A stretch of DNA of 39,120 bases from a virus. Position 1 is the stretch's first letter. The number at the start of each line of letters is the position of its first letter. Under the pieces are notes generated by a model. The model saw only the letters and a list, made by a program, of their open reading frames with translations. It was not told where the DNA came from and ran no database searches. Positions 146-39,120 of the stretch are shown here, in pieces. Location of the stretch: positions 1 through 39,120 of IMG/VR virus record IMGVR_UViG_3300024520_000201; one strand, 5' to 3'. Made by a program: the position numbers and the translations under genes.

Positions 146-1666
146 GACGTCTGACACAGCTCTACCCATACGACCGACAAAGCGCTGTTCAAATTTGATG
201 CCACGATACCAGGCAGCTTTAGCATCTTCAGGGTCAACATACTCTAGTGACTCTTCATCATCATCATCACGTAGTGTATAGCTGCCCCTTGAGCCTTCAT
301 CATCATCAAAGGAAAGGTCTTCCTGTGCTGTACCATCATAGGGTCCAAGACCAAGCTGCATGATGGGCAGGCTACCCCAAGGTGCGTCAGCTGGGTTGTC
401 CCCTCTATCTTCACGCACCTGCTGAACAGTACGCACTGCGTTAGTCAAGTCTTGTGCCTCACGCTTCAAGTCAAATTCCTTGTCAGGTGCAAGGTAGTCA
501 TCAAAGCGTGCAATCAGCATTGCGTCATACTCACTTGTGAAGTCACGAGTAAGTGTATGCGCAATCTGGTTGGTCATTGGCATCATGGTGTGCTTGTCAA
601 AGACGTAGTCTGTGGTATCAGCTGCTGACCTGTTGACATCAATGATGTCACCAAGCGTTGCCCTGCTGACACCATATGCCATCAACGTCTGGTCACGTGA
701 GGAGTCACGCAACTCCTTGGATGTCTCTACACCACCATGTGGTGACAGCTCTGTGATGTCAAAGCCTGAAGGCAAGAAGGCAGGCACACCAGTGAAGGCA
801 CCTGCCCTACCATCAAAGTCATTGCGCCAGCGTCGATAGAAAGCACGCTTTGCGCCTGATGATGGCTTCCTTGTACCAGGCTTTGCAGTTATGACAGTTC
901 TAGGTGTAGCATCATTCTGCCAATGACGGTTGAAGTGTTGTTCCATGTACCTGCTGGTGTCGTACTCAAGAGCCTGTGGACCAAGCACACCCATACCACT
1001 ATACAGTGTTGCTGGGTCAGGGTCCCAGAATCGGATAACATCTTCCCGGGGTAAGGGGTGCTCATGCCCGTCGCCATCCACCACCACGTACCCTGACACA
1101 ACCTCATGTGCATCAAAGACAGGGAAGGTGCTTCCTGGTGGCAATGGCCACAGCTCCTGACACCACCCAAGACCATCACGCAGCTTCTGCCAGTAGGCTG
1201 TACCTGTCTGCTGAAGGTGCCAAGCGGTCAACCACAGCAAGTCGCCACCACTAAACACATTATTAGGTTTCTCAAGAATCCTTGATGCAAGGTGCTCAGG
1301 CATGAACTCACTCTCTACCTTGCCACCTGCATTGACACTTTTGAGTGCTGCCATCACAGTCAGACCACGCAATCGCTTTGCGACTGCTCGCCCTGCTATA
1401 GCTGCCCAACCCTTGACGCCATCCTTTAACAACTTTGCGTCACTGGGTTGGTCACCAAGGGTGCCACGGTACATAGTCATACCGTTCATACCCTGACTGA
1501 AGAACACCACAGGGTCATTGGCAGTTGGCCGCTCATTGTCTGCCCTGACCTGCTGATCTTCCACTAAATCGTGTATGAAGCCCCTTGGCAATAGCAGCTG
1601 CTGCCCGCTGTTGCTCGGCTGGATATCGTCAACAAGTGACACTGACACAAAGCTGTCGTCATTCAT
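1..1666 (-). CDS. Portal protein fused to MuF-like domain (N-terminal part, runs off the left edge)
   Basis: This is an open frame from ATG at 1666 to base 1 with no stop. It starts inside the terminase stop (ATGA overlap). The first ~500 residues have HK97-family portal character: an N-terminal region naming the chain MNDDSFVSV, a Trp-rich wing (LLWLTAWHLQQTG), then LPREDVIRFWD, YMEQHFNRHWQND, AYGVSRATLGDI and a late acidic stretch (about residue 465-475). Portals form the dodecameric head vertex through which DNA enters and to which the tail attaches. At about residue 508 the frame enters the sequence that, at the right end (38425-39120), is a MuF-like minor head domain. Joined on the circle the protein would be about 738 residues. 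Portal-MuF fusions are known in other phages. The portal call rests on pattern and on its position after the large terminase. Confidence 0.85.
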   Translation of the reverse strand, partial: MNDDSFVSVSLVDDIQPSNSGQQLLLPRGFIHDLVEDQQVRADNERPTANDPVVFFSQGMNGMTMYRGTLGDQPSDAKLLKDGVKGWAAIAGRAVAKRLRGLTVMAALKSVNAGGKVESEFMPEHLASRILEKPNNVFSGGDLLWLTAWHLQQTGTAYWQKLRDGLGWCQELWPLPPGSTFPVFDAHEVVSGYVVVDGDGHEHPLPREDVIRFWDPDPATLYSGMGVLGPQALEYDTSRYMEQHFNRHWQNDATPRTVITAKPGTRKPSSGAKRAFYRRWRNDFDGRAGAFTGVPAFLPSGFDITELSPHGGVETSKELRDSSRDQTLMAYGVSRATLGDIIDVNRSAADTTDYVFDKHTMMPMTNQIAHTLTRDFTSEYDAMLIARFDDYLAPDKEFDLKREAQDLTNAVRTVQQVREDRGDNPADAPWGSLPIMQLGLGPYDGTAQEDLSFDDDEGSRGSYTLRDDDDEESLEYVDPEDAKAAWYRGIKFEQRFVGRMGRAVSDVLNAQRIRIIEEWTNNPIRNQGAALRGKRLTQKEVEKLLFSRKTWDKVL

Positions 1667-3057
1667 ATCCACGCTATATCCTCGTCACCTTCAAACTCTT
1701 CATCATAGTCAAAGTCATCTGACTCTGTCTCTACACCTGAAGATGTATTGCTTTGCTCGCCATACAGGTCATCAAATGACACTTCTATGTCTATACACAT
1801 ATCGTTGAATATAACGCTGGTCGCATCAACGTCATCATCATGTGCGCAGTCAGGTCCAAAGGAGTCAAGTACATCCATGAAAGGACCGTTCCACATGCCA
1901 CGCACTAGCTTGACGTTGCCTGCCCTTGCGTATGAGGCTAACGCTCTTGCGCGTAATGACTTATCACCTGACACAGGGATGCCTTCAACATCATACCCTA
2001 TCAGACGCTTGGTGACAGCTGCAACAAAGAGCTTGCCACTGCTACCCCCTTCCTGCTCCAACCGCTGGCGCACAGCTACACCATCAAGTTGCACTACAGA
2101 AACCATACGGTCCTCTGTGTCAGAAGGCTCTAACCTATAGCGCTCGACATGCTCAATGTATAACAACCTTGTGTTTAGGCATAAGGCTATGCGTGCACCG
2201 ATGGTCCAGTCAGGGTCTTTGCCTGGTTTGGGCATCGTAGCTGCGAAATCCCAACCCCTACCACGTATACACTCTATAGGGGCAGCATCCACAAGCTCAA
2301 AGTCTTGCTTTCTGAAGATAACACCACCTGGTTTCGCGTCCCAATCACCATCTAGCAACTGCTGCCTGGTGACAGGGTCAAGCTCATTCAGTGAGCTTTC
2401 ATACTCTTGCGCGTCAAGGTAGGGATTGTCTTTCAGCTTACCAGGTAGAAACACTCTTTGGCGTGGGTTGGATAGTGCGCCTGCCTTCAGTCCTGGTATA
2501 ACCAAGCGCTCTTTCACCCAGTCATGCCCTACACCACCAGGATTGGATGCGCTCCACACACGTATTGGTATCTGTACACCAATGAGCCTACGTGTACGGC
2601 TGTGAAGATATCGGTACATTGACTCATAGAACTGTGTCAGCTCATCAAAGCCAACGAATTGGTACTCTGCTGACTGATAGTCGTACTTGTTGTCTTCATG
2701 CTGCATGTGACCAAACTCTAGTGTTGCCCCACTAGGGAAGGTCCATTGGCTCTTTTCGCCATTCCAGCTTGCATCAGTATTGCGTAGCCAGTCATGAGAT
2801 CTTGGCAGCAATGAGCCTGCCTTGGATAGCTGCTTGAAGGTACGACGAAGCAGGAGAGCACTGTACCCAGGAATATCAACATACTGAAGAGCTGCCATAA
2901 GCAACCAATCTGTCTTGCCTGGTCCAGCAGCACCACCATATAGCACCTCACGATTGGGTAACAGCAAACCAGCTGCCTGCCGATCCGTTGGGGTGTGAGG
3001 TATGTACTTGGTGAGCCTAGGCGTAGTCAACGCTGTCAGCTCGGCTGCTGCGCTCAA
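1663..3057 (-). CDS. terL: Terminase large subunit
   Basis: This 464-residue ATP-driven DNA packaging motor and nuclease docks on the portal. Visible motifs: Walker A GGAAGPGKT at residues 41-49, Walker B FVGFDE at 134-139, the coupling-type motif SASNPGG near 169-175, and a C-terminal RNase H-like nuclease with Asp in RGWD (about 270) and CAHDDDVDA (about 404-411). Length and motif order are normal for the family. The start is a TTG at 3057 that overlaps the TGA stop of the small subunit. The next ATG is far inside, so translational coupling to terS is likely. The stop overlaps the portal start. The cos or pac packaging type cannot be told from this sequence. Confidence 0.95.
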   Translation of the reverse strand: MSAAAELTALTTPRLTKYIPHTPTDRQAAGLLLPNREVLYGGAAGPGKTDWLLMAALQYVDIPGYSALLLRRTFKQLSKAGSLLPRSHDWLRNTDASWNGEKSQWTFPSGATLEFGHMQHEDNKYDYQSAEYQFVGFDELTQFYESMYRYLHSRTRRLIGVQIPIRVWSASNPGGVGHDWVKERLVIPGLKAGALSNPRQRVFLPGKLKDNPYLDAQEYESSLNELDPVTRQQLLDGDWDAKPGGVIFRKQDFELVDAAPIECIRGRGWDFAATMPKPGKDPDWTIGARIALCLNTRLLYIEHVERYRLEPSDTEDRMVSVVQLDGVAVRQRLEQEGGSSGKLFVAAVTKRLIGYDVEGIPVSGDKSLRARALASYARAGNVKLVRGMWNGPFMDVLDSFGPDCAHDDDVDATSVIFNDMCIDIEVSFDDLYGEQSNTSSGVETESDDFDYDEEFEGDEDIAWI

Positions 3058-9287: not shown

Positions 9288-10226
9288 ATGGCAGCACGTA
9301 AGAAGAAGGCAGCAAGCAAGAAGAAGGCAGCGTCAAGGCGACGCCCTTCAACACAGCAAGAAGAGATGGCAGTAGCTACACAGCAAAGTGACATGGTGGT
9401 TGCTGAAGATATCGACGCAGCAATGCTTGAAGACATTGGGTCAGGGCATGAAGAGGTCAGCGGGGAAGACCTTGCAACACCCTTCCTGAACATCTTGCAG
9501 GCACAGTCACCCCAGTGCATGAAGGGCAGTGATGAGTACATTGACGGAGCTGAGCAGGGCTGCTTCATGGATAGCGTCAGCGAGCATGTGTATGATGGTG
9601 AAGAGGGTATCTTGGTTGTGCCCTGTCACTTCCAATCAAGGTGGATTGAATGGATTGGGCGCAAGCATGGTGGTGGTTTCGTCAGACAGTTTGACGTTGG
9701 CGAGCGTCCGTCAGGTACCAGACGTGGTGACATCTCTCTGTGTATTGATGATGAAGGGCAGATCTGGCATGGTGACCCAAAGGAAACACCAAGGCAGTAT
9801 GTCAGGACGCACCTTCAGTACCTGCTGCTTGTCAACTCTGACACACAGCTGATACGCCCTGTGATCTTCAGCGTGAAGAGCACTGGACTGACACCATCAT
9901 CCAAGTGGAATAGCAGTCTGCGTCAGATGGTGGTACCTGGTAAGGGTACACTTCCCCGTTTCAATAGCCTGTGGATGCTGTACAGCAAGTATCGCGACAA
10001 TGACCAAGGGTCCTGGTACAGCTTCCAAGTAGAGGTGGAGCGGCCACTACAACCCAGCACACAGCAGTGGGACGCTCAGGTGTATGCTGCTGCTCGTGAG
10101 TTCAAAGCAGCCGTTGTTGAGTCACGTGTGCAAGCCAACTTTGACCAGTCACGTGCTACGGAAGCTGCTGACACTGGTCAGGGTCAGGATAGCCAAGGGG
10201 GGCTGGACGAGGAAACACCCTTCTAG
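9288..10226 (+). CDS. Putative ssDNA-binding protein with acidic tail
   Basis: 312 residues, ATG 9288 after AAAGGAG. The N-terminus is a Lys/Arg/Ala tail (AARKKKAASKKKAASRRR, residues 2-19). A beta-rich central domain follows, with FLNILQAQSP, EEGILVVPCHFQSRWIEWIG, PVIFSVKSTGLTPSSKWNS and WYSFQVEVERPLQP. The end is acidic and disordered, finishing DEETPF. A C-terminal acidic tail closing in Pro-Phe is the hallmark of SSB proteins, where it recruits polymerase, primase and nucleases. Together with its place before the primase, an SSB function is the best inference. The central fold is not one I can align to classic OB SSBs. Confidence 0.62.
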   Translation: MAARKKKAASKKKAASRRRPSTQQEEMAVATQQSDMVVAEDIDAAMLEDIGSGHEEVSGEDLATPFLNILQAQSPQCMKGSDEYIDGAEQGCFMDSVSEHVYDGEEGILVVPCHFQSRWIEWIGRKHGGGFVRQFDVGERPSGTRRGDISLCIDDEGQIWHGDPKETPRQYVRTHLQYLLLVNSDTQLIRPVIFSVKSTGLTPSSKWNSSLRQMVVPGKGTLPRFNSLWMLYSKYRDNDQGSWYSFQVEVERPLQPSTQQWDAQVYAAAREFKAAVVESRVQANFDQSRATEAADTGQGQDSQGGLDEETPF

Positions 10227-10246: not shown

Positions 10247-10299
10247 GAAGCAGGGCAGGGGTTTTATTACTGGGGGGTATGGGGTCCCTGCCCTGCTTC
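10247..10299 (+). promoter_or_regulatory. 14-bp hairpin with G-tract loop before the primase
   Basis: Arms GAAGCAGGGCAGGG (10247-10260) and CCCTGCCCTGCTTC (10286-10299) are perfect complements around a 25-nt loop that itself holds runs of six and four G. There is no T-run after it, so it is not a classic terminator. It lies between the SSB-like gene and the primase start and would hide an upstream ATG at 10279. Another six-G run (10305-10310) follows just before the GTG start. Translational control or partial attenuation is plausible, not shown. Confidence 0.75.
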
Positions 10300-10314
10300 A
10301 CCTTGGGGGGCGTA

Positions 10315-11838
10315 GTGAGCAGGAAGAAGGCAGACACAGCAGAGCATATGTGTGAGCTATTCGCTGGTTACATGGAAGCGTATGGTATATATGAAATAGA
10401 TGAGAGCACCAGGCGCAGCTCTGATGGTAAGGTCAAGGGTCAGGCGCGTACAGTACGTGACACAGTCACAGAGCTTCTATGGAAGCAGCACCTAGCAGGT
10501 GAGCTACCTATAGGCATCATCACCATCAATGAAGAAGACCAATGCCATTGGGGTTGTATAGATGTCGATGACTATTCAGTTGACCACAAGAAACTGTGTC
10601 AACTCATTAAAGCGTTAAAACTTCCTTTGACGGTTTGCAGGACCAAGAGTGGTGGCGCACACTGCTATGTGTTCTTCAAAGAACCTGTACCAGCATGGTT
10701 GGTGCAACAGAAGCTGACCAATTGGTCAGCAGTGCTTGGTCATGGGGGTAGTGAGATATTCCCCAAGCAGACAACCGTTGACCTTGAAGCTGATGACCTG
10801 GGTAGCTGGGTGAACATGCCCTACTACGACGCTGACAATACAATGCGTTATGCCTATGACTCTCAAGGCAACGCAATGGATGCTGAGCTATTCTTGAAAA
10901 AGGCTATACGTCTTGACCATGCAACCTTTGAGCACACTGAGCCAAAGAAGCTAGCCAAGGCACCCGCAAAGGATGATGACTTTCACGACGGTCCAGTGTG
11001 CTTTGAGATCATAACTACACAAGGGAAGGTATCTAGCGGCAAACGCAACAATGCTCTTGTATCCATAGCTGTGTACTGCAAGAAGAAGTGGCCAGACGAT
11101 TGGGCACAACACGTACACAGAATGAATACAGAGTATCTGCAACCACCTCTGCCTGCTGGTGAGGTTGGTGACATCATCAAGCATTGCAGCAGAAAAGACT
11201 ACTTTTATCTGTGTAAGCAAGAGCCGTTGCTGTCCCACTGCAACGGCTCACTGTGCAGGACTAGACCCTATGGGGTGGGTGATGGGGAAGACAAAACCAG
11301 CGTTGTCATCAGTGAGCTACGCAAACTTGATACAGACCCACCCATCTGGTATATGGACATCACTGATACAGGCACTGTATCCCTGACAACTGACCAGCTT
11401 GCTAGTGCAGCACTTTTCAAGAAAGCCTGCATGGAGCAATTGACAATATTTCCTGTAGTCAATGCCAAGCAATGGCAGACCCTGCTGGTTGATGTAATGG
11501 ACAGGGTTGTCTTGGTTGAGATCTCAGAAGAAGAGAAAGAGCACTCTGGTGTAGTGGGTGAGTTCTATCAGCACCTGGTTGACTTCTTCCAACGCGCTCA
11601 TGGTGAAGATGAAGAAGAGCTGTTACTCAGAAAAGTGTGGAAGCACAAGGGTCGCTTGATATTCCGTCTGCAAGACTTAATGGAACACCTAGCAACCAGA
11701 CGATTCAGCAAGTACACCAGACCAATGATATGTCAAGAGCTGAAGAGGTTTGGTGCCAAGATGGAAACACCTAAGCGTGTCAAGGGTGTAGTCACTCGCA
11801 CTTGGTCTATCCAAGACAATTGGGAGCAAACAGAATGA
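10315..11838 (+). CDS. Archaeo-eukaryotic-type primase (AEP)
   Basis: 507 residues from GTG 10315, just after a six-G run; ATG 10279 would start inside a hairpin and adds an odd leader. It makes RNA or DNA primers for the phage polymerase. Residues ~76-90 hold the metal-binding DVD pair (CIDVDDY), and ~112-120 the SGGAHCYVF histidine motif, with GSEIFPKQ shortly after: the AEP signature. Residues ~240-330 look like a PriCT-type C-terminal domain (KRNNALVSIAVYCKKKW, PPLPAGEV) followed by YFYLC ... HCNGSLC, a likely zinc site. A helical C-terminal part of ~170 residues follows. No helicase motif is fused; the helicase is the next gene (ATGA overlap). Confidence 0.85.
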   Translation: MSRKKADTAEHMCELFAGYMEAYGIYEIDESTRRSSDGKVKGQARTVRDTVTELLWKQHLAGELPIGIITINEEDQCHWGCIDVDDYSVDHKKLCQLIKALKLPLTVCRTKSGGAHCYVFFKEPVPAWLVQQKLTNWSAVLGHGGSEIFPKQTTVDLEADDLGSWVNMPYYDADNTMRYAYDSQGNAMDAELFLKKAIRLDHATFEHTEPKKLAKAPAKDDDFHDGPVCFEIITTQGKVSSGKRNNALVSIAVYCKKKWPDDWAQHVHRMNTEYLQPPLPAGEVGDIIKHCSRKDYFYLCKQEPLLSHCNGSLCRTRPYGVGDGEDKTSVVISELRKLDTDPPIWYMDITDTGTVSLTTDQLASAALFKKACMEQLTIFPVVNAKQWQTLLVDVMDRVVLVEISEEEKEHSGVVGEFYQHLVDFFQRAHGEDEEELLLRKVWKHKGRLIFRLQDLMEHLATRRFSKYTRPMICQELKRFGAKMETPKRVKGVVTRTWSIQDNWEQTE

Positions 11839-13262
11839 CCACCCAGGTGCACACCATCTATGGCCCACCTGGTACAGGCAAGACGCAACGCCTACTCACT
11901 CTTGTGCAGGATGAAACAACCAACAACACCAGCGGTCAGCACGTTGGCTACTTTGCCTTCACCAAGGCAGCAAGCAGAGAAGCCAAGGCACGCACCCACC
12001 TGACGCAAGCACCCTACTTCAGAACACTACACAGTTTATGCTTTGAAATGCTCGGCATGAATCGCAAGAGGGTACTTGGCAGCAGAGCACAGTACCAATT
12101 CCTTGAATCCTACGGTATACCCCTAAACATGACAGGTGAAAATACCGTAGGCACTGCCCGCACTCTCATGTACCACTATGACCAGTCACGTATACGTGGT
12201 CTGTCCATTGATGACTACTTCAACAGGACCAACCCACGTGACATAGAGTCGTGTGAGGTAGCTGTATTTGCTCGCATCTATAACAAATTTAAGTTGCAGC
12301 TAGGGTTGGTTGACTTCACTGACTTGCTACTCAACTATGTGAAGGACGCCAAGCGCTACTCAACCCCTGATCTTGACGTCATCTTTGTTGACGAAGCACA
12401 AGACCTATCACGCTTACAGTGGCAAGTGTTGGATAAGGTGCTGCACTTTGGTAGGGTGAAGCGTGCATACATAGCTGGTGATGATGACCAAGCTATCTAT
12501 GCGTGGGCAGGTGCAGACGCTGACAGCTTCACATCTCTCCCCGGGACAAGTGAGCTGTTGCAGCAGTCGCACAGGGTCCCAAAGGCAATGCACGCTGTAG
12601 CCAATCGCATCATACGTCAGGTGAAGCTACGCAAGCAGAAGCTGTGGCTACCTGTTGACAAGGAAGGTGCTGTCAAGATTGTGTCAAGCATTGAAGACAT
12701 TGACTTCAGCAAGGGTGAGTGGTTGGTACTGGCTAGGGAAAATAAAACACTTTGGTCAGCTCACCTGCACCTTGAGCGTGAAGGCATCCTGTACCGCAAC
12801 GACACCACACCAGTGCTGCCCCTTGGCACGCTTGAGGCTATTGAGGCATGGAAGCGTATACAGCAAGGACACCCCATCAGGGGTGACAGGCGACAGGTGC
12901 AGCTGTTGCAGACCAGGAAAATGCAGAAGGACCTGGTGAGCGCTCCCACCATGCCTGATTGGCCTACTGCCTTTGACAGGTTGACAGAAGCCAACGTAAC
13001 ATACCTACGTGTTGCAATACGTAAGGGGGAAGACACAGCGTACCCACGTGTGAGGCTGAGCAGCATACATGCAAGCAAGGGTGCTCAATGTGACAATGTT
13101 GTTGTGTATGAGCGGTTGGGGTATGGGTCAGCAATACATGAGATGTACACAGATGTGTCAGATACCCTTCATCGACTGTTCTACGTAGCAGTCACAAGAG
13201 CGGTCAAGAATTTATACATAGTGGATGCTCATGGCGAGCAGTTTCACTACCCAATAGTGTGA
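11835..13262 (+). CDS. SF1 (UvrD/Rep/Dda-type) DNA helicase
   Basis: 475 residues from ATG 11835, overlapping the primase stop. Motifs are complete and in order: I GPPGTGKT (10-17), Ia (FAFTKAASREA), II VIFVDEAQD (182-190), III AGDDDQAIYAWAGAD (214-228), IV SHRVPKAMH, V SSIHASKGA, VI FYVAVTRA near the end. It is a compact SF1A translocase, shorter than UvrD, close in size to T4 Dda. In this genome it is the best candidate for replicative or fork helicase, as no DnaB-like gene is present. A helper role alongside a host helicase is also possible. Confidence 0.92.
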   Translation: MTTQVHTIYGPPGTGKTQRLLTLVQDETTNNTSGQHVGYFAFTKAASREAKARTHLTQAPYFRTLHSLCFEMLGMNRKRVLGSRAQYQFLESYGIPLNMTGENTVGTARTLMYHYDQSRIRGLSIDDYFNRTNPRDIESCEVAVFARIYNKFKLQLGLVDFTDLLLNYVKDAKRYSTPDLDVIFVDEAQDLSRLQWQVLDKVLHFGRVKRAYIAGDDDQAIYAWAGADADSFTSLPGTSELLQQSHRVPKAMHAVANRIIRQVKLRKQKLWLPVDKEGAVKIVSSIEDIDFSKGEWLVLARENKTLWSAHLHLEREGILYRNDTTPVLPLGTLEAIEAWKRIQQGHPIRGDRRQVQLLQTRKMQKDLVSAPTMPDWPTAFDRLTEANVTYLRVAIRKGEDTAYPRVRLSSIHASKGAQCDNVVVYERLGYGSAIHEMYTDVSDTLHRLFYVAVTRAVKNLYIVDAHGEQFHYPIV

Positions 13263-14197: not shown

Positions 14198-14744
14198 CGC
14201 TGTCTTCATTGGTGGTGATGTACAACGCTGGCACAACAGGCGATACATGCAGGCACAGTCCGTAGCTCATCACAGCTGGCGCGTTGCTCAGATTGCAACG
14301 TACCTATACGACAGCAGCGTGCTTGATATACCATCAAATGTGTTGCTTGCTGCGCTTGACCATGACGTTGCAGAAGCTTGGACAGGTGACATCTCAGCAC
14401 CTGTCAAGAGTGCTGCCCCTAACATACGTGACCATGTTGAGCTACTGGCAACTGACTGGTTGCTGAGCAAGGGTCTGAGGGAAGACTACGCACTGACTGA
14501 CACAGAGAAGCTGTTCATACACTTGTGTGACAAGTTGGAAGCAATGCACTACTGCTGTGACATGCTCGCGCAAGGTAACCCCGGAGGTACCGTACCCTTC
14601 TGGGTTGTGAACAGCGTTGTTGAAGGCATTCTGCTCAGTGACCATGCACAAGGTGCTGAGTGGTTGGATAGAGCACAGGGCTTGGTGCAAGACCTTCAAT
14701 ACCACTGGTCACACTTTCTTCATGGTGAGTCACCACTGTCATGA
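14166..14744 (+). CDS. HD-domain phosphohydrolase (5'-deoxynucleotidase-like)
   Basis: 192 residues from GTG 14166, with AAAGGAG at 14152-14158. HHSWRVAQIA (35-44), LDHDVAEAWTGDI (64-76) and a later FIHLCDKLEA give the HD metal-binding pattern of the YfbR family, which removes phosphate from deoxynucleoside monophosphates. In a phage it would tune nucleotide pools during replication. It is next to the DNA polymerase (ATGA overlap). Substrate is not determinable here; other HD hydrolases cannot be fully excluded. Confidence 0.82.
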   Translation: MSRHNLFKKLDAVFIGGDVQRWHNRRYMQAQSVAHHSWRVAQIATYLYDSSVLDIPSNVLLAALDHDVAEAWTGDISAPVKSAAPNIRDHVELLATDWLLSKGLREDYALTDTEKLFIHLCDKLEAMHYCCDMLAQGNPGGTVPFWVVNSVVEGILLSDHAQGAEWLDRAQGLVQDLQYHWSHFLHGESPLS

Positions 14745-16651
14745 CAGCACAGCAACCACTACTGATGACAGCAACACCTGACACTAGCAAGTGGTTGCCA
14801 CCTGTCAGCTTTCCGCGACTGTGGGAAGCCAAGTCAGTCACCATTGATACTGAGACAAGGGACCCCAGGTTAGATACCTGGGGTCCTGCTTGGCACAAGA
14901 AAGAGTCAGACGCCTATATGGTGGGTGTGTCTGTTGAAGCTGACGGTTGGGTAGGTTACTACCCCCTTGCTCATGCCAACGGCAACAACATGGATAACAA
15001 AATTGTGTTACGTTGGTTGAGCAAGGTGCTCAAAGCTGACAACGAGAAAGTGTTTCACAATGCAAGCTATGATCTGGGGTGGTTGTCGCACAGTGGTCTA
15101 ACACAGATTGGTGGTACCATCTTTGACACAGCAGCAGCTGCACCACTGCTTGACGAGCACAGGCTTTCGTACTCCCTTGAGAACCTCTGCCAAGACTTCT
15201 TAGGACAGGGTAAGGTTGAGACGTGGCTACAGCAGCGTGCAAGAGAGCTTGGACTAGACCCCAAAGCAGACCTATGGCAGCTGCCACCACAGGACGTTGG
15301 CATGTACGCTGAAGGTGATGTCATACAGACACGAGCATTGGCTGAGCACTTGCGGCCACTGCTAGCAGAGCAAAACCTGACAGACCTTATGTCACTTGAG
15401 TGTAGGCTTATCCCTGGTCTGGTACGTACCAGGTTGAAAGGGGTGTGTGTAGATGTTGAAGCAGCTGAGCGCTTACGCCTGAAGCTTGGCAAAGATGCTG
15501 AGAAGCTTGCTCATGAACACAGAAAAGAGTTTGGCAAGTACACCAACCCTAACAGCAATGTTGAGATTGCTGCTGTCTGTCATCGCCTAGGTATCAGCCA
15601 CCCTTACACAAAAGAAGGTAATCCAAGCTTCGTCAAAGAGTGGCTAGAATCGCACAAGCACCCACTTTTCAAGTCAATACGCATGATGCGCCAGCTAGCA
15701 ACTATGCGTGGTCTGCTGAAGAGCATTGTATATGATTACAACTATAATGGTCGTATTCATTGCAGTCTGAACCAGCTGCGTGGTGACAAGGAAGGAAGCA
15801 TAAAGGGAACTGTGTCAGGCAGGTTCAGCAGCAGTCACCCCAACCTGCAACAGGTACCAGAGCGTGACCCCTTCTGGGGTCCGTTGTTCCGGTCACTCTT
15901 CATACCATCCAAGGGCAAGCGTTGGATTAGCGCTGACTATGCTGAGCAAGAGTACAGGCTCATTGTACACTTTGCGTTGTTGCTGCGCTTACCAGGTGCA
16001 AAGGAAGCAGCAGCAGCATATAGGGTAGCTGGTGCAAGCTTCCACCAGATGGTTGCTGACCTGCTTGGCAGACCAAAGGAAAGGAAACTGTGTAAGCAGC
16101 TCAACTTTGGTATGGCCTATGGTATGGGTGAAGGGTTGCTAGCTGCTAGCCTCGCTTTGACGCTTGAGGCAGCAAGACCACTGCTGACACTTTATCATGA
16201 TAAAGCACCCTTCATCAGAGATTTACGTGATGCCTGTAGCAACAGAGCTGAAGCAGCTGGGTACGTACACACAATATTGAAGAGACGTTGTCGCTTCCCA
16301 CTGTGGGAGCGTCGCACCTATGGCAAGGGTCAAGATGAAGTGTATGAGGCACCACTACCAAGGGAAGAAGCGCTCAAGAAGTGGGGCAACAGGGTCAGAC
16401 GAGCATGGTTACACAAAGCTATGAATAGGGTGATACAGGGTGGTGGTGCTGACATCACCAAGGCAAGCATGGCAGCGTGCTATGACGCCGGTATTGACCC
16501 ACTGCTGCAAGTGCATGATGAGCTTGACTTTGAGAGTGATAGCCCTGATGAATCAGACAAGGTCAAGGAAATCATGCAGGACACTGTACCCACTGACCCA
16601 CACATGGTGGTGGATGTAGGTATTGGTGACAATTGGGCGGAAGCTCACTAG
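14741..16651 (+). CDS. polA: DNA polymerase family A with 3'-5' exonuclease
   Basis: 636 residues. The exonuclease domain is intact: DTETRD (36-41), FHNASYDLGWL (105-115), YAEGDV (189-194). The polymerase domain has motif A SADYAEQEYRL (397-407, Asp399 and Glu404), motif B RKLCKQLNFGMAYG (448-461, with Arg448, Lys452, Phe456, Tyr460) and motif C VHDE (591-594). The residue matching E. coli Phe762 is Phe (456), not the Leu or Tyr seen in many marine phages. No 5'-nuclease domain. This is the replicative polymerase of the phage. It overlaps the nucleotidase gene before it. Confidence 0.97.
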   Translation: MTAQQPLLMTATPDTSKWLPPVSFPRLWEAKSVTIDTETRDPRLDTWGPAWHKKESDAYMVGVSVEADGWVGYYPLAHANGNNMDNKIVLRWLSKVLKADNEKVFHNASYDLGWLSHSGLTQIGGTIFDTAAAAPLLDEHRLSYSLENLCQDFLGQGKVETWLQQRARELGLDPKADLWQLPPQDVGMYAEGDVIQTRALAEHLRPLLAEQNLTDLMSLECRLIPGLVRTRLKGVCVDVEAAERLRLKLGKDAEKLAHEHRKEFGKYTNPNSNVEIAAVCHRLGISHPYTKEGNPSFVKEWLESHKHPLFKSIRMMRQLATMRGLLKSIVYDYNYNGRIHCSLNQLRGDKEGSIKGTVSGRFSSSHPNLQQVPERDPFWGPLFRSLFIPSKGKRWISADYAEQEYRLIVHFALLLRLPGAKEAAAAYRVAGASFHQMVADLLGRPKERKLCKQLNFGMAYGMGEGLLAASLALTLEAARPLLTLYHDKAPFIRDLRDACSNRAEAAGYVHTILKRRCRFPLWERRTYGKGQDEVYEAPLPREEALKKWGNRVRRAWLHKAMNRVIQGGGADITKASMAACYDAGIDPLLQVHDELDFESDSPDESDKVKEIMQDTVPTDPHMVVDVGIGDNWAEAH

Positions 16652-16664
16652 AAGGGGGAGCGTG

Positions 16665-17147
16665 GTGAAGTCAGAGAAAGATGCCTATCGACTGCTGAAG
16701 GAACACTTTTCAGGTATGTTCGCTGTACACCATACAAGGTTGGAGAATTGGGCAGGTACTGGTGTGCCTGACGTCAATTGGTGTTTCAGTGTACAGGGTG
16801 AAGGTGTTGAGGTCTGGACTGAGTTGAAGTTTATGAAGGGCTTTCAGTTCCGGTCAGAGTTGAAGGCAGCTCAGGCTATATGGTTGCGCAACCGTTGGCT
16901 TGCTGGTGGTCGTGCGTACCTGCTTGCTGTCCAACCACCTAACACATTTCTGTTGTGGGAGGGTCACAAGGCATCAAGGCTACGTGATGCTGACTCCCCT
17001 TTGAACGTGCCAACCGATGGCGTATACACAGGAGAGTATGCAGAGCTTGCGTTGGATATGCTCAACCACCAACCCCCTATAGTGCATCGTATCAGCATTG
17101 ACAGCTCAGCAGACAGCAAAGCTGAAACACTGTTCTGGGTAAGCTGA
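16665..17147 (+). CDS. VRR-NUC-like nuclease
   Basis: 160 residues from GTG 16665 with AGGGGGAG just upstream; GTG 16662 is an alternative. It shows the short PD-(D/E)XK layout of VRR-NUC proteins: GTGVPDVNW (31-39), then VEVWTELKF (48-56, Glu53-x-Lys55), then a Gln/Trp helix (AAQAIWLRNRWLAGG). Such nucleases cut branched or recombination DNA and often sit beside SNF2 helicases in phages, as here (next gene, 1-base overlap). A Holliday-junction or flap-processing role is likely; the exact substrate is unknown. Confidence 0.8.
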   Translation: MKSEKDAYRLLKEHFSGMFAVHHTRLENWAGTGVPDVNWCFSVQGEGVEVWTELKFMKGFQFRSELKAAQAIWLRNRWLAGGRAYLLAVQPPNTFLLWEGHKASRLRDADSPLNVPTDGVYTGEYAELALDMLNHQPPIVHRISIDSSADSKAETLFWVS

Positions 17148-18613
17148 TGAGCAGCTACCCATACAAGACTGAGCCAATGAAGCACCAGCGCTACATACTT
17201 GAGGGTATGTGGTTGCGCAGTGAAGTTGCCCTGCTTGCTGACATGGGGACAGGCAAAACCAAAATCATCCTTGACGAGGTGGGAGCGCTCCACCTGTACA
17301 GAAGTGGTGACACATACACAGATGGGTTGCTAGTCCTGTGTCCTAAGTCGCTTGTGTTCAATTGGCGTCAAGAGCTGTTGACGCACATGAGTGACACTGT
17401 GTCATATCGCTTTGCTTCTTGGACCAGCACACCAAACAAGAGTGAAGCCAAAGCACTGAAAGCTGTATCAGTAGCTGACCCCAATGAGGCAACGCTACAC
17501 ATACTTATCATGAACATTGAAGCCTTGAGGGAAAGGGGCAACAAAGCAGAGAAGCTTGCAGAAGCCTTCTTGAAGTCACACAAGTGTGTGATGATAGTAG
17601 ATGAAAGTACCTTTATCAAGAACCCTCAAGCCAAACGTACCAAGGCAGCGATACGCCTAGGCACCCTTGCACACACCAGGCGCATCTTGACAGGTACAGC
17701 AGTCGAGCAAAGCCCACTTGATGCCTGGTCTCAATTTCAGTTCCTACGTGCTGGCATCTTGGGTCATGACACCTTCACTGCCTTCAAAGGGTGCTACGCA
17801 ATTCAGCGTGACATGGAAGTTGGGCCTAAACGCTTCAAGATCGTAGTTGGATACCAGAGGCTTGAGCAGCTGTCAGCACGCATTGCAGAACACAGCTTTG
17901 TGATAAAGAAGAGCCAATGTCTAGACCTCCCACCCAAGGTGTACAAGACAGTGCTTGTACCTCTGACACCCGAACAACGCAGAGTGTATAAGCTCATGGA
18001 GAGTGAAGCACTGCTTGAGCTTGGTGGTGGAGCGCTCGCCACAGCACCTGAGATGATAACCAGGTTTCTCAGGCTTCATCAGATATGCAACGGTCACATG
18101 CTGGATGATGATGGCAAAGATGTGTACTTCAAGACAGACAGACTGAAGGTACTGACCGATACAATCCTTCCCGGGGTGAGTGGTTCTGCTGTCATCTGGG
18201 GACACTTTGTAGAGCCGTTGCGGTTGGTTGCTGATGCTATCGGTATGAAGTATGACCATGAGCAGGTGGCAATGTTTACTGGTGATGTGACCAAGGGCAA
18301 GCGTGCTCAGCTGGTTGCCTGTTTCCAAGACCCCACGCACCCATTACGCTTCTTGGTGGCAAACAAAACAGCTGCCTTTGGTCTGACGCTCACAGCAGCT
18401 GACCATATGATTTATTACACCAACCAGTGGTCACCTGATGTCAGAATACAGAGTGAAGACAGAGCACATAGGAAGGGACAGGATAAGAGCGTCACTTACA
18501 TTGACATGATTGCACCTGACACAATAGAAATGGTGATAGCTCAAGCGCTCAAGAAGAAGGCTTCCGTTGCCAAGGTGGTCATGTCAGATGGGTTGAGGGG
18601 TATGAAGCTATGA
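17147..18613 (+). CDS. SNF2-type SF2 helicase/translocase
   Basis: 488 residues with a complete SF2 set: I LLADMGTGKTKI (30-41), Ia LVLCPKSLVFNW, II MIVDESTFIKN (DEST in place of DEAH), III RRILTGTAVEQSPLDAW, IV SAVIWGHF, V FGLTLTAADHMIYYTNQWSP, VI QSEDRAHRKGQ. It is the small stand-alone SNF2 form common in phages, likely a dsDNA translocase that moves proteins or remodels recombination or replication forks with the nuclease encoded just before it. Confidence 0.92.
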   Translation: MSSYPYKTEPMKHQRYILEGMWLRSEVALLADMGTGKTKIILDEVGALHLYRSGDTYTDGLLVLCPKSLVFNWRQELLTHMSDTVSYRFASWTSTPNKSEAKALKAVSVADPNEATLHILIMNIEALRERGNKAEKLAEAFLKSHKCVMIVDESTFIKNPQAKRTKAAIRLGTLAHTRRILTGTAVEQSPLDAWSQFQFLRAGILGHDTFTAFKGCYAIQRDMEVGPKRFKIVVGYQRLEQLSARIAEHSFVIKKSQCLDLPPKVYKTVLVPLTPEQRRVYKLMESEALLELGGGALATAPEMITRFLRLHQICNGHMLDDDGKDVYFKTDRLKVLTDTILPGVSGSAVIWGHFVEPLRLVADAIGMKYDHEQVAMFTGDVTKGKRAQLVACFQDPTHPLRFLVANKTAAFGLTLTAADHMIYYTNQWSPDVRIQSEDRAHRKGQDKSVTYIDMIAPDTIEMVIAQALKKKASVAKVVMSDGLRGMKL

Positions 18614-35315: not shown

Positions 35316-36740
35316 TCAGCTGATGGTGCCGACAGACTTCCTGAAGGCAGCAGTGTTGATTACCCCACTATCACGACGCTCAACAAACTTCCACTGCACC
35401 TGGTCTTTCTTGAAGACGTCATCAGCTTCCGTTGTCACCTCAACCCGAATCCCACCATCCTTGATGACAGCGAAACCCTCACTCAGCAACCCAATGTAGA
35501 TGTTGTCGGCCGTAATGGGCAGCTCAATGTAGGGATAGCCTTCAACCACGTTTGCAGCACCAGCAGCGTCATTGAGCGTTGTCACAGCAGCGTCAGCAGG
35601 TGAGTACAGGGGCCGATTGTTACCATCCACCAGCTTGGCAAGAATTGCAGTAACAGCAGCGTTGCCCATCCAAGTCAACCCACCACCATCACGATACTCA
35701 GAAGGCAGTGCAAGTTGCATGTCAACGAGCATGGGACGCGTCAACGCACCAGTAACACCAGCCACTGTAGCGATGGTCGCCTGAGCAATGGCAAGCTTGT
35801 GATTCACACCAGTACCATCACCCGTCTGTGCTGACTGAGCTTCCATGTACACAGACAGCTTTCGAGCTGCCTGGTTACTCAGAATTGTGCTCAGTGAGAA
35901 AGCTGCTGAAATGTCGTCAAGCAGCTCCTTGGAAGACCTGACAAGACGTCCTGCCTTCTTCTTGGACAGAATGATCTCACTGAAGGTGCTGTCCGTTTCT
36001 GTCAAGTCAGCATTCTCTGCTGTACCCGTAACGGCACCAACTGCATTCTCCTGTACAATCGTCAGTGTCAGCGCAGTTGACGTGAGTGACATGGCACGCG
36101 GCGCAATGCGCTCGCGCGCATCACGCTTGAGCACAATCAGGTCACTCAGAGGTGTCGGCACCATCGACCCACCAGCAGCAGCCGTTGCACCACCCAGAGC
36201 ACGAGCAACGTACTCGTTGTCACGATGCTTGCCCTTGAGCAGACGCAGAATTGGGTCAGCGTCCCTGATGGTGAGCAGCGTAGCTGAGTCCTTCTCAACC
36301 AACGCCTTCATGTGACGCCATGTGTTCACGTCACCTTCTGGTGTACGTATGGCACGCTCTGACTCAGGCAGCGTACGATACTGAGCTTCCCACCCCGGGA
36401 TCGCTCGCAACGCTGAACCGTATGAGACGTTGTCACGTGTGTACATGGGGATATCAACCCCCTTGTCACGCGTATTTGTGTCACCACCAGCACCACCAGC
36501 AGACAACCTGCTACGGTCAACGTGGTCACCACCTTCACCAGTACGCTGCAAACCATCCAGCACACCAGCAAGAGCAGCAGCCGTTGCACGTGCCTGTACG
36601 TCTGCAAACTCCTCAGACGTCATGTCAGCAACACGCTTGGGTGTCTCAGCACCCACAGCCCTGTGTAGCTTGTCATCAAGCTCAGTGTGGTCGATTTCCA
36701 CCTCTGAACCATCAGACCTCAGAATTACTTTGATCTTCAT
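35316..36740 (-). CDS. Major capsid protein (HK97 fold)
   Basis: 474 residues, ATG 36740 overlapping the protease stop. The N-terminal ~100 residues look like a removable scaffold (delta-type) domain: KVILRSDGSEVEIDH, then MTSEEFADVQARATAAALAG, then a Gly-rich linker. The mature part has HK97-type features: GGSMVPTPLSDLIVLKRDAR, AENADLTETDSTFSEIILSK, a later TGDGTGVNHKLA and YPYIELPI ... VIKDGGIRVEVTTEADDVF. The residues before the first beta segment are where a protease cut would fall. Makes the icosahedral shell. The C-terminal end of the neighbouring protease resembles this N-terminal domain (see findings). Confidence 0.92.
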   Translation of the reverse strand: MKIKVILRSDGSEVEIDHTELDDKLHRAVGAETPKRVADMTSEEFADVQARATAAALAGVLDGLQRTGEGGDHVDRSRLSAGGAGGDTNTRDKGVDIPMYTRDNVSYGSALRAIPGWEAQYRTLPESERAIRTPEGDVNTWRHMKALVEKDSATLLTIRDADPILRLLKGKHRDNEYVARALGGATAAAGGSMVPTPLSDLIVLKRDARERIAPRAMSLTSTALTLTIVQENAVGAVTGTAENADLTETDSTFSEIILSKKKAGRLVRSSKELLDDISAAFSLSTILSNQAARKLSVYMEAQSAQTGDGTGVNHKLAIAQATIATVAGVTGALTRPMLVDMQLALPSEYRDGGGLTWMGNAAVTAILAKLVDGNNRPLYSPADAAVTTLNDAAGAANVVEGYPYIELPITADNIYIGLLSEGFAVIKDGGIRVEVTTEADDVFKKDQVQWKFVERRDSGVINTAAFRKSVGTIS

Positions 36741-37822
36741 CGTCTGGGTATCCTTCCAATGCGTTGTGCTAGCACAGCATCTACAGCACTGCGTGTTGCT
36801 GCTGCTTGCACACGTGTGAAGTCTTCAACAGTCATACCACCAACTGTGTTGCTCATGTGCTCTTGCGAGCGTTGCTGTCCTTTCGGATCAGGCTCAGGCT
36901 CTGTGTGCTCTTGCGAGCGTTGGTTGTCGGCTGCCTCACGGCAGAGTGCCATAGCAGTCCGTAGCTCTTCTAGGCTTTCGCCCTTGAGTGCTAGCAAAGC
37001 TGCCACAGGTATGTGTAGCGTCCTTTCATTTCCGTCAGCATCATTGAACGTGACACTACGTAGTTTCTGTCCCTTGAGCGTGCCTGCAAGCAGGTTTGCC
37101 AAGTCAGCGTCTTCTGCACCGAGGTTGCGTACACCTTCTAGGCTTTCCTCGACTGCTGCGAAAGCTTCAGCAATGCCCCCCATGCCATACTCATCACGCT
37201 CACACGCTTGTGCAAGCGCTCGCATGAACACTCTGCTGTGTGAGCTGAGATCGTTGCTCCTGAGTGACAGAGCTTTAGGGTCAGCACCAAGGGCAACAAT
37301 GCTACCCTCTTCACTTGCTGACCTTTTGTGTAGGTGACCCCAGTGGCGAGCATCACTCTGACCTACCTTGGCTGAGTCAACGTATGCCCAATGACTTGAA
37401 GGCAACTCAGTTCTGCGTATGGTCTCGATTGGTCGCCAACGTAGCGACATACCACGCAAGTCACGTGCCTTGACGAGTCCGTAGATATCGCGCCTGATCT
37501 CACCAAGGATGCTGTCACCATCCATGTTGACGCGACCTTCAACCAGTAGCAGCTGCTCTGACCCCCTGGTTTCCTTGTGAGGCTTGACGATACTCCCCAT
37601 CAAAGGATTGAGCAACACGCTTCTGTGTCCGAACAGCATCGGCATACGTGCAGGCGTCTTGTTGCCTGCAATCTCAAGTATGTGTCCGTCAGCGGCTTCA
37701 CCTTGCGTTGCGAGCACAGCAGGAAACACACCATCAGCATCATCGCTTGACACTTCCCTGATACACTCAGGCATGGCACGCTCAAAGAACTCACCAACCT
37801 TCCCACGTTCTTCATCACCCAT
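36737..37822 (-). CDS. Prohead protease (S78-like) with capsid-like C-terminal module
   Basis: 361 residues from ATG 37822, with AGGGAG about 9 bases upstream; the longer frame (37894) overlaps the preceding gene. The N-terminal domain has the HK97-protease layout: beta start, then MLFGHRSVLLNPLMGSIV (His), EGRVNMDGDSILGEIRRDIY, and DLRGMSLRWRPIE with the probable catalytic Ser. The middle ~120 residues are linker. The last ~110 residues hold FNDADGNERTLHIP, then two in-frame copies of QRSQEH, then MTVEDFTRVQAAATRSAVDA. Cuts scaffold or capsid and is placed just before the capsid gene. Confidence 0.82.
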   Translation of the reverse strand: MGDEERGKVGEFFERAMPECIREVSSDDADGVFPAVLATQGEAADGHILEIAGNKTPARMPMLFGHRSVLLNPLMGSIVKPHKETRGSEQLLLVEGRVNMDGDSILGEIRRDIYGLVKARDLRGMSLRWRPIETIRRTELPSSHWAYVDSAKVGQSDARHWGHLHKRSASEEGSIVALGADPKALSLRSNDLSSHSRVFMRALAQACERDEYGMGGIAEAFAAVEESLEGVRNLGAEDADLANLLAGTLKGQKLRSVTFNDADGNERTLHIPVAALLALKGESLEELRTAMALCREAADNQRSQEHTEPEPDPKGQQRSQEHMSNTVGGMTVEDFTRVQAAATRSAVDAVLAQRIGRIPRR

Positions 37823-37844: not shown

Positions 37845-38420
37845 CTAGCGGCCGTATTGCGTTGAGCCGTAAATCTGCCCACGACCACTACCAACAGAGG
37901 TCAGTGGTGGCAGCAGCATGGTTATACCAGACGTCACAACGGTTGCTGACTGAGACGTATTGATTTTGTGTCGGCACCTTGGAAGATCGTTGACGGTTAA
38001 ACCATTGGTCCTGAAAGCATCAGCAGGAAACACACTTGTGTGCCACAGCATACCAGCACCAGCATCAGCTGGCTCAGCAAGACCAATCGCCAACGTCTGC
38101 ATTGCTGGCCACGTAAACCAATTTGCGCCATTGTCGCGCGACCACTCAAGATCATATGTGTAGTTGGCAGAGCTTGCAATCTCCATTGTCAAGCTTGACA
38201 CAACCCTGCACACGCCTTCCATGCTCTGAGCAGAAGGGTACGCAGCAGGTGCCATCATCTGCGGCTCAACAAAGATTGCAGCAGCAGCTGATGGGCCAAC
38301 CTTTAGCACACGCTTTGCTGTGTAGAAGTCAGCACCAACAAAAGTGATTGAGTCAACCAACGCTGCGACAGGCACGTCAGACATGAAGTCAAATGAAAAG
38401 CGCTCATTCGGGTACAGCAT
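37845..38420 (-). CDS. Head structural or accessory protein, unknown
   Basis: 191 residues, ATG 38420 just after the MuF stop. Beta-rich with Ser/Ala/Thr (VDSITFVGADFYTAKRVLKV, SLTMEIASSANYTYDLEWSR, WFTWPAMQTLAIGLAEPAD). No Cys pattern or membrane helix. Located between the portal-MuF gene and the protease. It could be a head decoration or accessory protein; family not recognised. Confidence 0.62.
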   Translation of the reverse strand: MLYPNERFSFDFMSDVPVAALVDSITFVGADFYTAKRVLKVGPSAAAAIFVEPQMMAPAAYPSAQSMEGVCRVVSSLTMEIASSANYTYDLEWSRDNGANWFTWPAMQTLAIGLAEPADAGAGMLWHTSVFPADAFRTNGLTVNDLPRCRHKINTSQSATVVTSGITMLLPPLTSVGSGRGQIYGSTQYGR

Positions 38421-38424
38421 TGTG

Positions 38425-39120
38425 TTACTCTCCTTTGATGATAGGCGTCATGAAACACCTACAGTTCATACGGTTTTTAGCTGACAGTGTTGGGTCTAGT
38501 GGTGCAATACACCTTTCGTTGTCGTCCAACACAAAATCGTTGTCAAGGGGTTGCTCTTGCCCCCCGATGTCGTGTGAGTCACGTACTTGCTCATCATTGG
38601 CATCATTCCAGCGCTTGCCGCTGACCTCACCACTTGCTGCCCATCCACGTATCTGAGCATTCTGCATGACGCTACGTGTTTCTGTGCGGGCAATGCGTCT
38701 TGCTCTGACTCTGCCAAATGATTTCATCTTGCTGATTTCACGTGCTGTCTTGCTAATGCTGTCACCACTGATGACGCTGTCACCTATGATCTTGGTGAGC
38801 TTGCGCAGTGTACGTTTGTTTATCTCACCTACCAACTTTATTGTGTGACGCTCAGTGATACGCTCAATGAGTGCTGAGCTGACCTCTACACCTACTTCAC
38901 CTGATATCACCTGGTCAAGCGCTTCCTGAGCACTGACGATGAATGAGCGCTGTACTTCAGGCAACAGCTTGTCATATAGCACCTTGTCCCATGTCTTGCG
39001 ACTAAAGAGCAGCTTCTCTACTTCTTTCTGTGTCAGACGCTTGCCACGCAACGCAGCACCCTGGTTGCGGATTGGGTTGTTAGTCCACTCCTCGATTATG
39101 CGTCTGCGTTGCGCATTCAA
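38425..39120 (-). CDS. Portal-MuF fusion, C-terminal MuF-like part (continues past the right edge)
   Basis: 231 residues in this copy, open at the right edge; the TTG there is not a start because the frame continues upstream on the circle (see the left-end CDS). The MuF signature is clear: RRIARTETRSVMQNAQIRGW (about 137-156), KRWNDANDEQVRDSHD (about 164-179), then NRMNCRCFM near the end. The N-terminal helices (QRSFIVSAQEALDQVISG and on) link it to the portal. MuF domains are minor head proteins linked to the portal and injected DNA. There is no extra toxin domain after NCRC. Confidence 0.87.
   Translation of the reverse strand: MNAQRRRIIEEWTNNPIRNQGAALRGKRLTQKEVEKLLFSRKTWDKVLYDKLLPEVQRSFIVSAQEALDQVISGEVGVEVSSALIERITERHTIKLVGEINKRTLRKLTKIIGDSVISGDSISKTAREISKMKSFGRVRARRIARTETRSVMQNAQIRGWAASGEVSGKRWNDANDEQVRDSHDIGGQEQPLDNDFVLDDNERCIAPLDPTLSAKNRMNCRCFMTPIIKGE
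38976..39120. repeat. Right copy of the 145-bp terminal overlap
   Basis: Same orientation and 143 of 145 bases identical to 1-145. Mismatches are at 38986 (G here, A at 11) and 39104 (C here, A at 129). The second changes one residue (Ile in the left copy, Arg in the right copy) in the portal-MuF sequence; the first is silent. Confidence 0.9.

Follow-up and report, generated by a model that had tools for sequence, protein, structure and literature searches.

In phage lambda, the element shared by the protease and its assembly partner is a nested gene that yields a separate scaffold, gpNu3. In the herpesviruses, a segment common to the protease precursor and the scaffold (UL26/UL26.5) leads to the protease being built into the scaffold (PMC12474303). 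The scaffold domains of HK97 and D3 form coiled-coil towers in prohead I, which contains about 60-90 copies of the protease (PMC10275583, PMC12749128). A comparison of fusions lists lambda as scaffold-protease and HK97 as capsid-scaffold, and fused protease-capsid genes are present in Arthrobacter phages (PMC5513430). For SPN3US, a C-terminal propeptide has been proposed to target the protease to the prohead (PMC7411985). A scaffold-type protease C-terminus (lambda, herpesviruses) and an N-terminal scaffold on the capsid protein (HK97) are thus already known, and no report of both placements in one phage with matching sequence was found in the open-access literature searched. In that same literature, the manner in which an HK97-type protease, at tens of copies to hundreds of capsid subunits, enters the procapsid is unsettled.

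The window analyzed here, that is, the whole 39,120-base stretch of a virus record, has a 145-base repeat with 2 mismatches at its ends (1-145 and 38976-39120), which indicates that the genome is probably complete or nearly so, circular or terminally redundant, and cut inside the portal gene. The portal and MuF reading frames form a single portal-MuF fusion gene split by the record ends, likewise in the related locus L037. On the minus strand, the head genes run in the order TerS, TerL, portal-MuF fusion, a 191-aa protein, protease, and capsid, and the capsid gene is followed by a 141-aa protein and then by connector-type proteins. The genes of concern are as follows.

37845 to 38420, minus strand: 191-aa protein between portal-MuF and protease, a candidate head protein (no match in Pfam or PHROG)
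36737 to 37822, minus strand: head-maturation protease gene, 361 aa from the probable ATG at 37822, in a reading frame open from 37894
35316 to 36740, minus strand: major capsid protein gene, 474 aa (Phage_capsid PF05065, E 1.6e-28; HK97 fold by Foldseek)

The sequence-only reading had noted a likeness between the end of the protease and the start of the capsid protein in adjacent genes, and both sequences were located where it had placed them, in reading frames (protease 37894-36737, capsid 36740-35316) whose stop and start overlap by 4 bases (ATGA); the same or a similarly tight junction is seen in most relatives.

Elsewhere in the genome, TerL (1663-3057) has as its closest cultured-virus relatives the methanogen viruses psiM2 and psiM100 (43%), in which no relative of the window protease or capsid was detected; by these sequences the genome is a mosaic. 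An AEP-TOTE type primase domain (E 1e-13, 10279-11838) adjoins the gene of a UvrD-like helicase (11802-13262); a DNA polymerase of family A (14741-16651) and an SNF2 helicase (17147-18613) lie farther along, and positions 9288-10226 strongly match a Pam3 phage gp34-like protein (E 2e-51).

Among cultured phages, protein searches gave no close relative of either the capsid or the protease, and direct searches with the window protease, capsid, and portal returned nothing close. Relatives were therefore reached stepwise, from a TerL search to L037, in which related portal, protease, and capsid genes occur in unchanged order, and from there by a protease alignment that retrieved 27 and later 52 IMG/VR loci, or about 50 metagenomic relatives. 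Scanning viral sequences with the capsid alignment brought in no further relative. Removal of duplicates left 24 non-redundant adjacent protease/capsid pairs. L210 is the nearest relative, with 38% identity in the protease and about 53-55% in the capsid, followed by L212 (capsid about 45%).

The window protease itself matched no family in Pfam or PHROG. Several of its homologues in the same gene position match head-maturation protease PHROGs (phrog_80, 1e-9; phrog_3244, 4e-4), and the best value of the relatives against Pfam S78 is 0.08. His66 and Ser126 are invariant in 30 of 30 aligned proteases and, by analogy with S78/herpes-type prohead proteases, are the putative catalytic pair. A Foldseek search with the protease model gave a best E of 0.19, with no protease among the 50 matches listed. 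The capsid protein, when searched in the same manner, matched the HK97-fold capsids of D3, HK97, and GTA at E values of about 1e-17 (8e-18).

In the AlphaFold model of the protease, a confidently predicted catalytic domain is followed by a helical region that includes a beta hairpin, then by a disordered linker (305-330) and the tail helix (332-355). The capsid model shows a hairpin at residues 2-17, a helix at 42-68, and disorder over 65-111, ahead of the HK97-fold body. A helical extension is thus predicted ahead of the mature capsid domain, the Pfam domain starting at residue 190. The parts referred to below are these.

37445 to 37627, minus strand: span between the putative catalytic His66 and Ser126, both invariant in 30 of 30 homologues
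37007 to 37063, minus strand: protease beta hairpin, aa 254-272 (modelled strands 254-260 and 266-272), the "DG beta segment" of the sequence-only reading
36833 to 36910, minus strand: disordered linker before the protease tail, aa 305-330 (pLDDT below 50)
36764 to 36847, minus strand: protease copy of the shared module (aa about 326-353), the tail helix at the C-terminus, modelled at 332-355; from alignment, profiles, and AlphaFold
36690 to 36737, minus strand: capsid N-terminal beta hairpin, aa 2-17 (modelled strands 2-6 and 13-17)
36537 to 36635, minus strand: capsid copy of the shared module (aa about 36-68), the scaffold-like helix near the N-terminus, modelled at 42-68; from alignment, profiles, and AlphaFold
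36408 to 36548, minus strand: disordered linker after the capsid module, aa 65-111 (pLDDT below 50)

Structure prediction, which the sequence-only reading had proposed for both proteins, places a helix beside a disordered linker in each; both modules are thus predicted to be tethered helices, at moderate confidence (helix pLDDT about 60-73). The amphipathic moment of the window protease tail is ordinary (z 0.2).

The two helices are alike in sequence. Aligned as VGGMTVEDFTRVQAAATRSAVDAVL--AQRIG (protease) and VADMTSEEFADVQARATAAALAGVLDGLQRTG (capsid), they share 12 of 22 residues in an ungapped core, so that the estimate of about half of 25 positions made from the letters was correct for the helix. 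The evidence from the two sequences by themselves is modest: BLASTP of protease against capsid gives an E value of 0.70, and the real score was reached by 13 of 1000 whole-protein shuffles and by 1 of 2000 shuffles of the C-terminus against the N-terminus. What these tests leave modest is settled by the profiles of relatives, which place the relation above chance. With a capsid-only profile built from L210 and L212, the window protease tail was the sole significant match outside capsids (E 1.3e-4), and the L210 capsid module alone also matches this tail (E 2.7e-5). The window-clade capsid profile found the window and L210 protease tails as its best matches outside its own input capsids (E 5e-6 and 0.04). 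In the opposite direction, the window-clade protease profile matches the window, L210, and L212 capsids (E 6e-5, 1.4e-3, and 6e-3); a protease profile made without the window was too weak to match capsids. Profile–profile comparison by hhalign gave a probability of 93% and E 3.6e-7 for the window-clade protease and capsid profiles, and E 2.5e-4 for those of L211/L214, with whole-family profiles at only E 0.013 (controls 0.18-0.57) and a probability of 3%. Thus, the profile comparison in related phages suggested by the sequence-only reading yields a match above chance, and the helical segments of the protease tail and capsid N-terminus are, by sequence comparison, related beyond chance. Furthermore, the window tail scores higher on the L210 capsid (z 11) than on its own (z 8.5), showing the module to be a property of the clade and not a private coincidence of one genome. 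A scaffold-like element related to an assembly protein is hence present at the protease C-terminus, its partner being the capsid's own N-terminus, and no reading frame with a third copy of the module was found in the window or the clade loci.

Whether each protease matches its own capsid was measured by local alignment of the last 60 protease residues against the first 110 residues of each capsid, scored against shuffles. Own pairs averaged a z of 1.56 against 0.37 for non-matching pairs (24 pairs), with a permutation p of 5e-5 that takes the pairs as exchangeable and ignores kinship among the phages, L211 and L214 being notably close. Three control regions gave no such signal: p was 0.69 for an upstream protease region, and 0.12 and 0.38 for two other capsid regions. 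With a shorter tail, p was 0.0009 for all pairs, 0.004 without the window, and 0.018 without the window clade. Most of the signal is contributed by two clades that differ in module sequence, window/L210/L212 and L211/L214, and when both were left out the test was not significant (p 0.31). Individually, 5 of the 24 pairs reached BH q<0.05 (the window, L211, L214, L210, and L191, the last lying outside both strong clades); the L212 pair, within the window clade, did not show a significant pairwise match (p 0.38). The protease tails and capsid N-termini of HK97 and D3 show no similarity (z 0.4 and -0.2), and 13 other HK97-type pairs mostly gave no signal, with three at z 2.2-2.8. The result without the two strong clades, together with the null result for HK97 and D3, indicates that the match is not a general rule for HK97-type heads, and such a general feature was rejected.

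The sequence-only reading had described a two-part module, in which a beta segment accompanied the helix; the helix was borne out by identities and profiles, and the beta half was rejected. In the register in which they were printed, FNDADGNERTLHIP (protease) and VILRSDGSEVEIDH (capsid) have 0 of 14 positions identical, a wider alignment scores no better than the average shuffle (z -0.1, p 0.54), and beta-segment similarity over the 24 pairs is absent (p 0.58). The two hairpins are alike in outline and unlike in sequence. The capsid hairpin sequence resembles that of the L210, L212, and L186 capsids; segments apparently homologous to the protease hairpin occur, as judged by eye, in the L193, L211, and L217 proteases, whose capsids are without the capsid hairpin.

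We consider it fairly probable that the protease ends in a recruitment tail of ~30 residues, which mimics the scaffold (delta) helix at the N-terminus of its own capsid, joins the bundles of that helix, and so enters the procapsid. From three observations (the sequence relationship of the helices, its recurrence in a second clade, and the adjacency of the genes) and from the modelled helix-plus-linker anatomy, we infer bundling, recruitment, and cleavage as follows. The tail would be a helix on a flexible linker, matched in sequence to the delta helix of its own capsid. The delta segments of such capsids would bundle within the assembling shell, and the tail would enter those bundles, whereby a minority of protease subunits would be carried into the procapsid. 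On completion of the shell, the protease would remove the capsid delta segment and probably its own tail too. Putative entry into delta bundles, with the binding, packaging, and cleavage that it would imply, is the simplest way to account for helices that are matched and yet specific to a clade; the recurrence of a matched module with a different sequence in L211/L214 fits recruitment through the capsid's own scaffold helix.

The main rival is that the shared stretch is a substrate signal, a docking or cleavage sequence common to both proteins, with the protease cutting itself and the capsid at one motif. Several module matches do extend into a Gly-basic motif (GRISR and GEVDR), those of L210, L211, and L214 in register (e.g. 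LGRISR/GVGEVDR); basic P1 residues are known in phi12-type heads (PMC8569155), and a glycine near the protease end is almost invariant in the protease alignment. However, the basic motif lies downstream of the matched helix, the conserved part is a helix of ~25 residues, which exceeds the cleavage motifs generally known for prohead proteases, and the helices of the two clades are mutually unmatched despite homologous protease domains. A substrate signal is thus held to be unlikely.

Alternatively, the tail and the capsid helix could bind to one another, or both to a third partner such as the portal, their likeness having arisen by convergence rather than homology. Consistent with this, all tails resemble short helices, the modules cluster by phage clade and not by protein, the whole-family profile match is weak, and many pairs are without similarity. 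However, the residue-specific identity (M-T-x-E-x-F and V-Q-A-x-A-T; R-E-T-x-E-x-x-V) far exceeds that of composition-matched shuffles and non-matching capsids, and a common third partner need not by itself demand such identity; convergence is accordingly given a rather small probability. As for a chance likeness of alanine-rich helices, for which the two-sequence BLASTP value speaks, its reproduction in independent relatives and the permutation and region controls stand against it, and the profile that leaves the window out disfavors it, making it highly improbable. Recruitment by a capsid-mimicking tail is retained as the preferred reading.

With respect to the origin of the module, the sequence-only reading had proposed duplication of a scaffold (delta) module. 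The shared helix stands and has a counterpart of different sequence in L211/L214, but neither a recent duplication nor a recent gene conversion is likely: codons are identical at 5 of the 12 conserved residues, with 5.1 expected from codon usage and only 12 codons comparable. This small comparison suggests that the sharing is old and maintained by selection. A tree built from the modules splits the two clades with full support, and no bootstrap tree (0%) unites the protease copies, the modules being too short for the tree to date the duplication and the clade split being its sole supported feature. This grouping by phage clade and not by protein implies either that the copies are coupled in evolution, having changed together after a single duplication, or that matched modules arose more than once. 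No cross-clade profile match was found between the window-clade and L211/L214 modules, and the modules of the two clades may therefore be non-homologous. Within phrog_617 (626 positions, a PHROG named major head protein), the proteases of relatives match positions 23-168 and the window capsid (35433-36185) matches positions 343-584; phrog_617 is evidently a protease-capsid fusion family, and one can conceive of an ancestor in which a single scaffold segment was shared. We propose only tentatively a head architecture between the lambda type (scaffold on the protease) and the HK97 type (scaffold on the capsid), in which both proteins carry scaffold helix copies that change together, helices unrelated across clades yet matched within a phage, and which may descend from a split protease-scaffold-capsid fusion gene.

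If true, a tail that copies the capsid scaffold helix would be a testable answer to the question of protease entry, since it names the signal and predicts the partner, and tail swaps between phages would be predicted to swap packaging specificity. Cargo could also be loaded into phage shells by means of such a tail, used as a short tag. The recruitment reading, moreover, connects the lambda, HK97, and fused protease-capsid arrangements.

The window resembles HK97 and D3 in the gene order portal-protease-capsid, an N-terminal scaffold element on an HK97-fold capsid, and a separate protease, but HK97 and D3 lack the tail–capsid similarity; the window capsid helix has ~27 residues whereas the HK97 tower comprises residues 2-66, and the D3 protease is annotated as ClpP-like, unlike that of the window. 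SPN3US likewise has a C-terminal protease extension with a proposed role in prohead targeting, but is a giant myovirus, and the part of its report considered here does not mention likeness of the protease propeptide to a capsid propeptide. The fused protease-capsid proteins (Arthrobacter AM/AU/AN phages; phrog_617 and phrog_4523) are linked to the window through the matches of relatives' proteases and the window capsid to parts of phrog_617, whereas the window has two proteins, a 4-base gene overlap, and a helix on each. As in UL26/UL26.5, the protease shares a segment with its assembly partner; in herpesviruses, however, the sequence is identical by way of overlapping genes, and the scaffold is distinct from the capsid protein. 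As in lambda gpC/gpNu3, a scaffold-type element lies on the protease C-terminus and would recruit the protease, but the second copy in the window is the capsid's own N-terminus, with no room for a scaffold gene between protease and capsid. By analogy with lambda C/Nu3 and herpes UL26/UL26.5, the arrangement in the window would follow a variant of their principle in which each of the two proteins retains the scaffold element.
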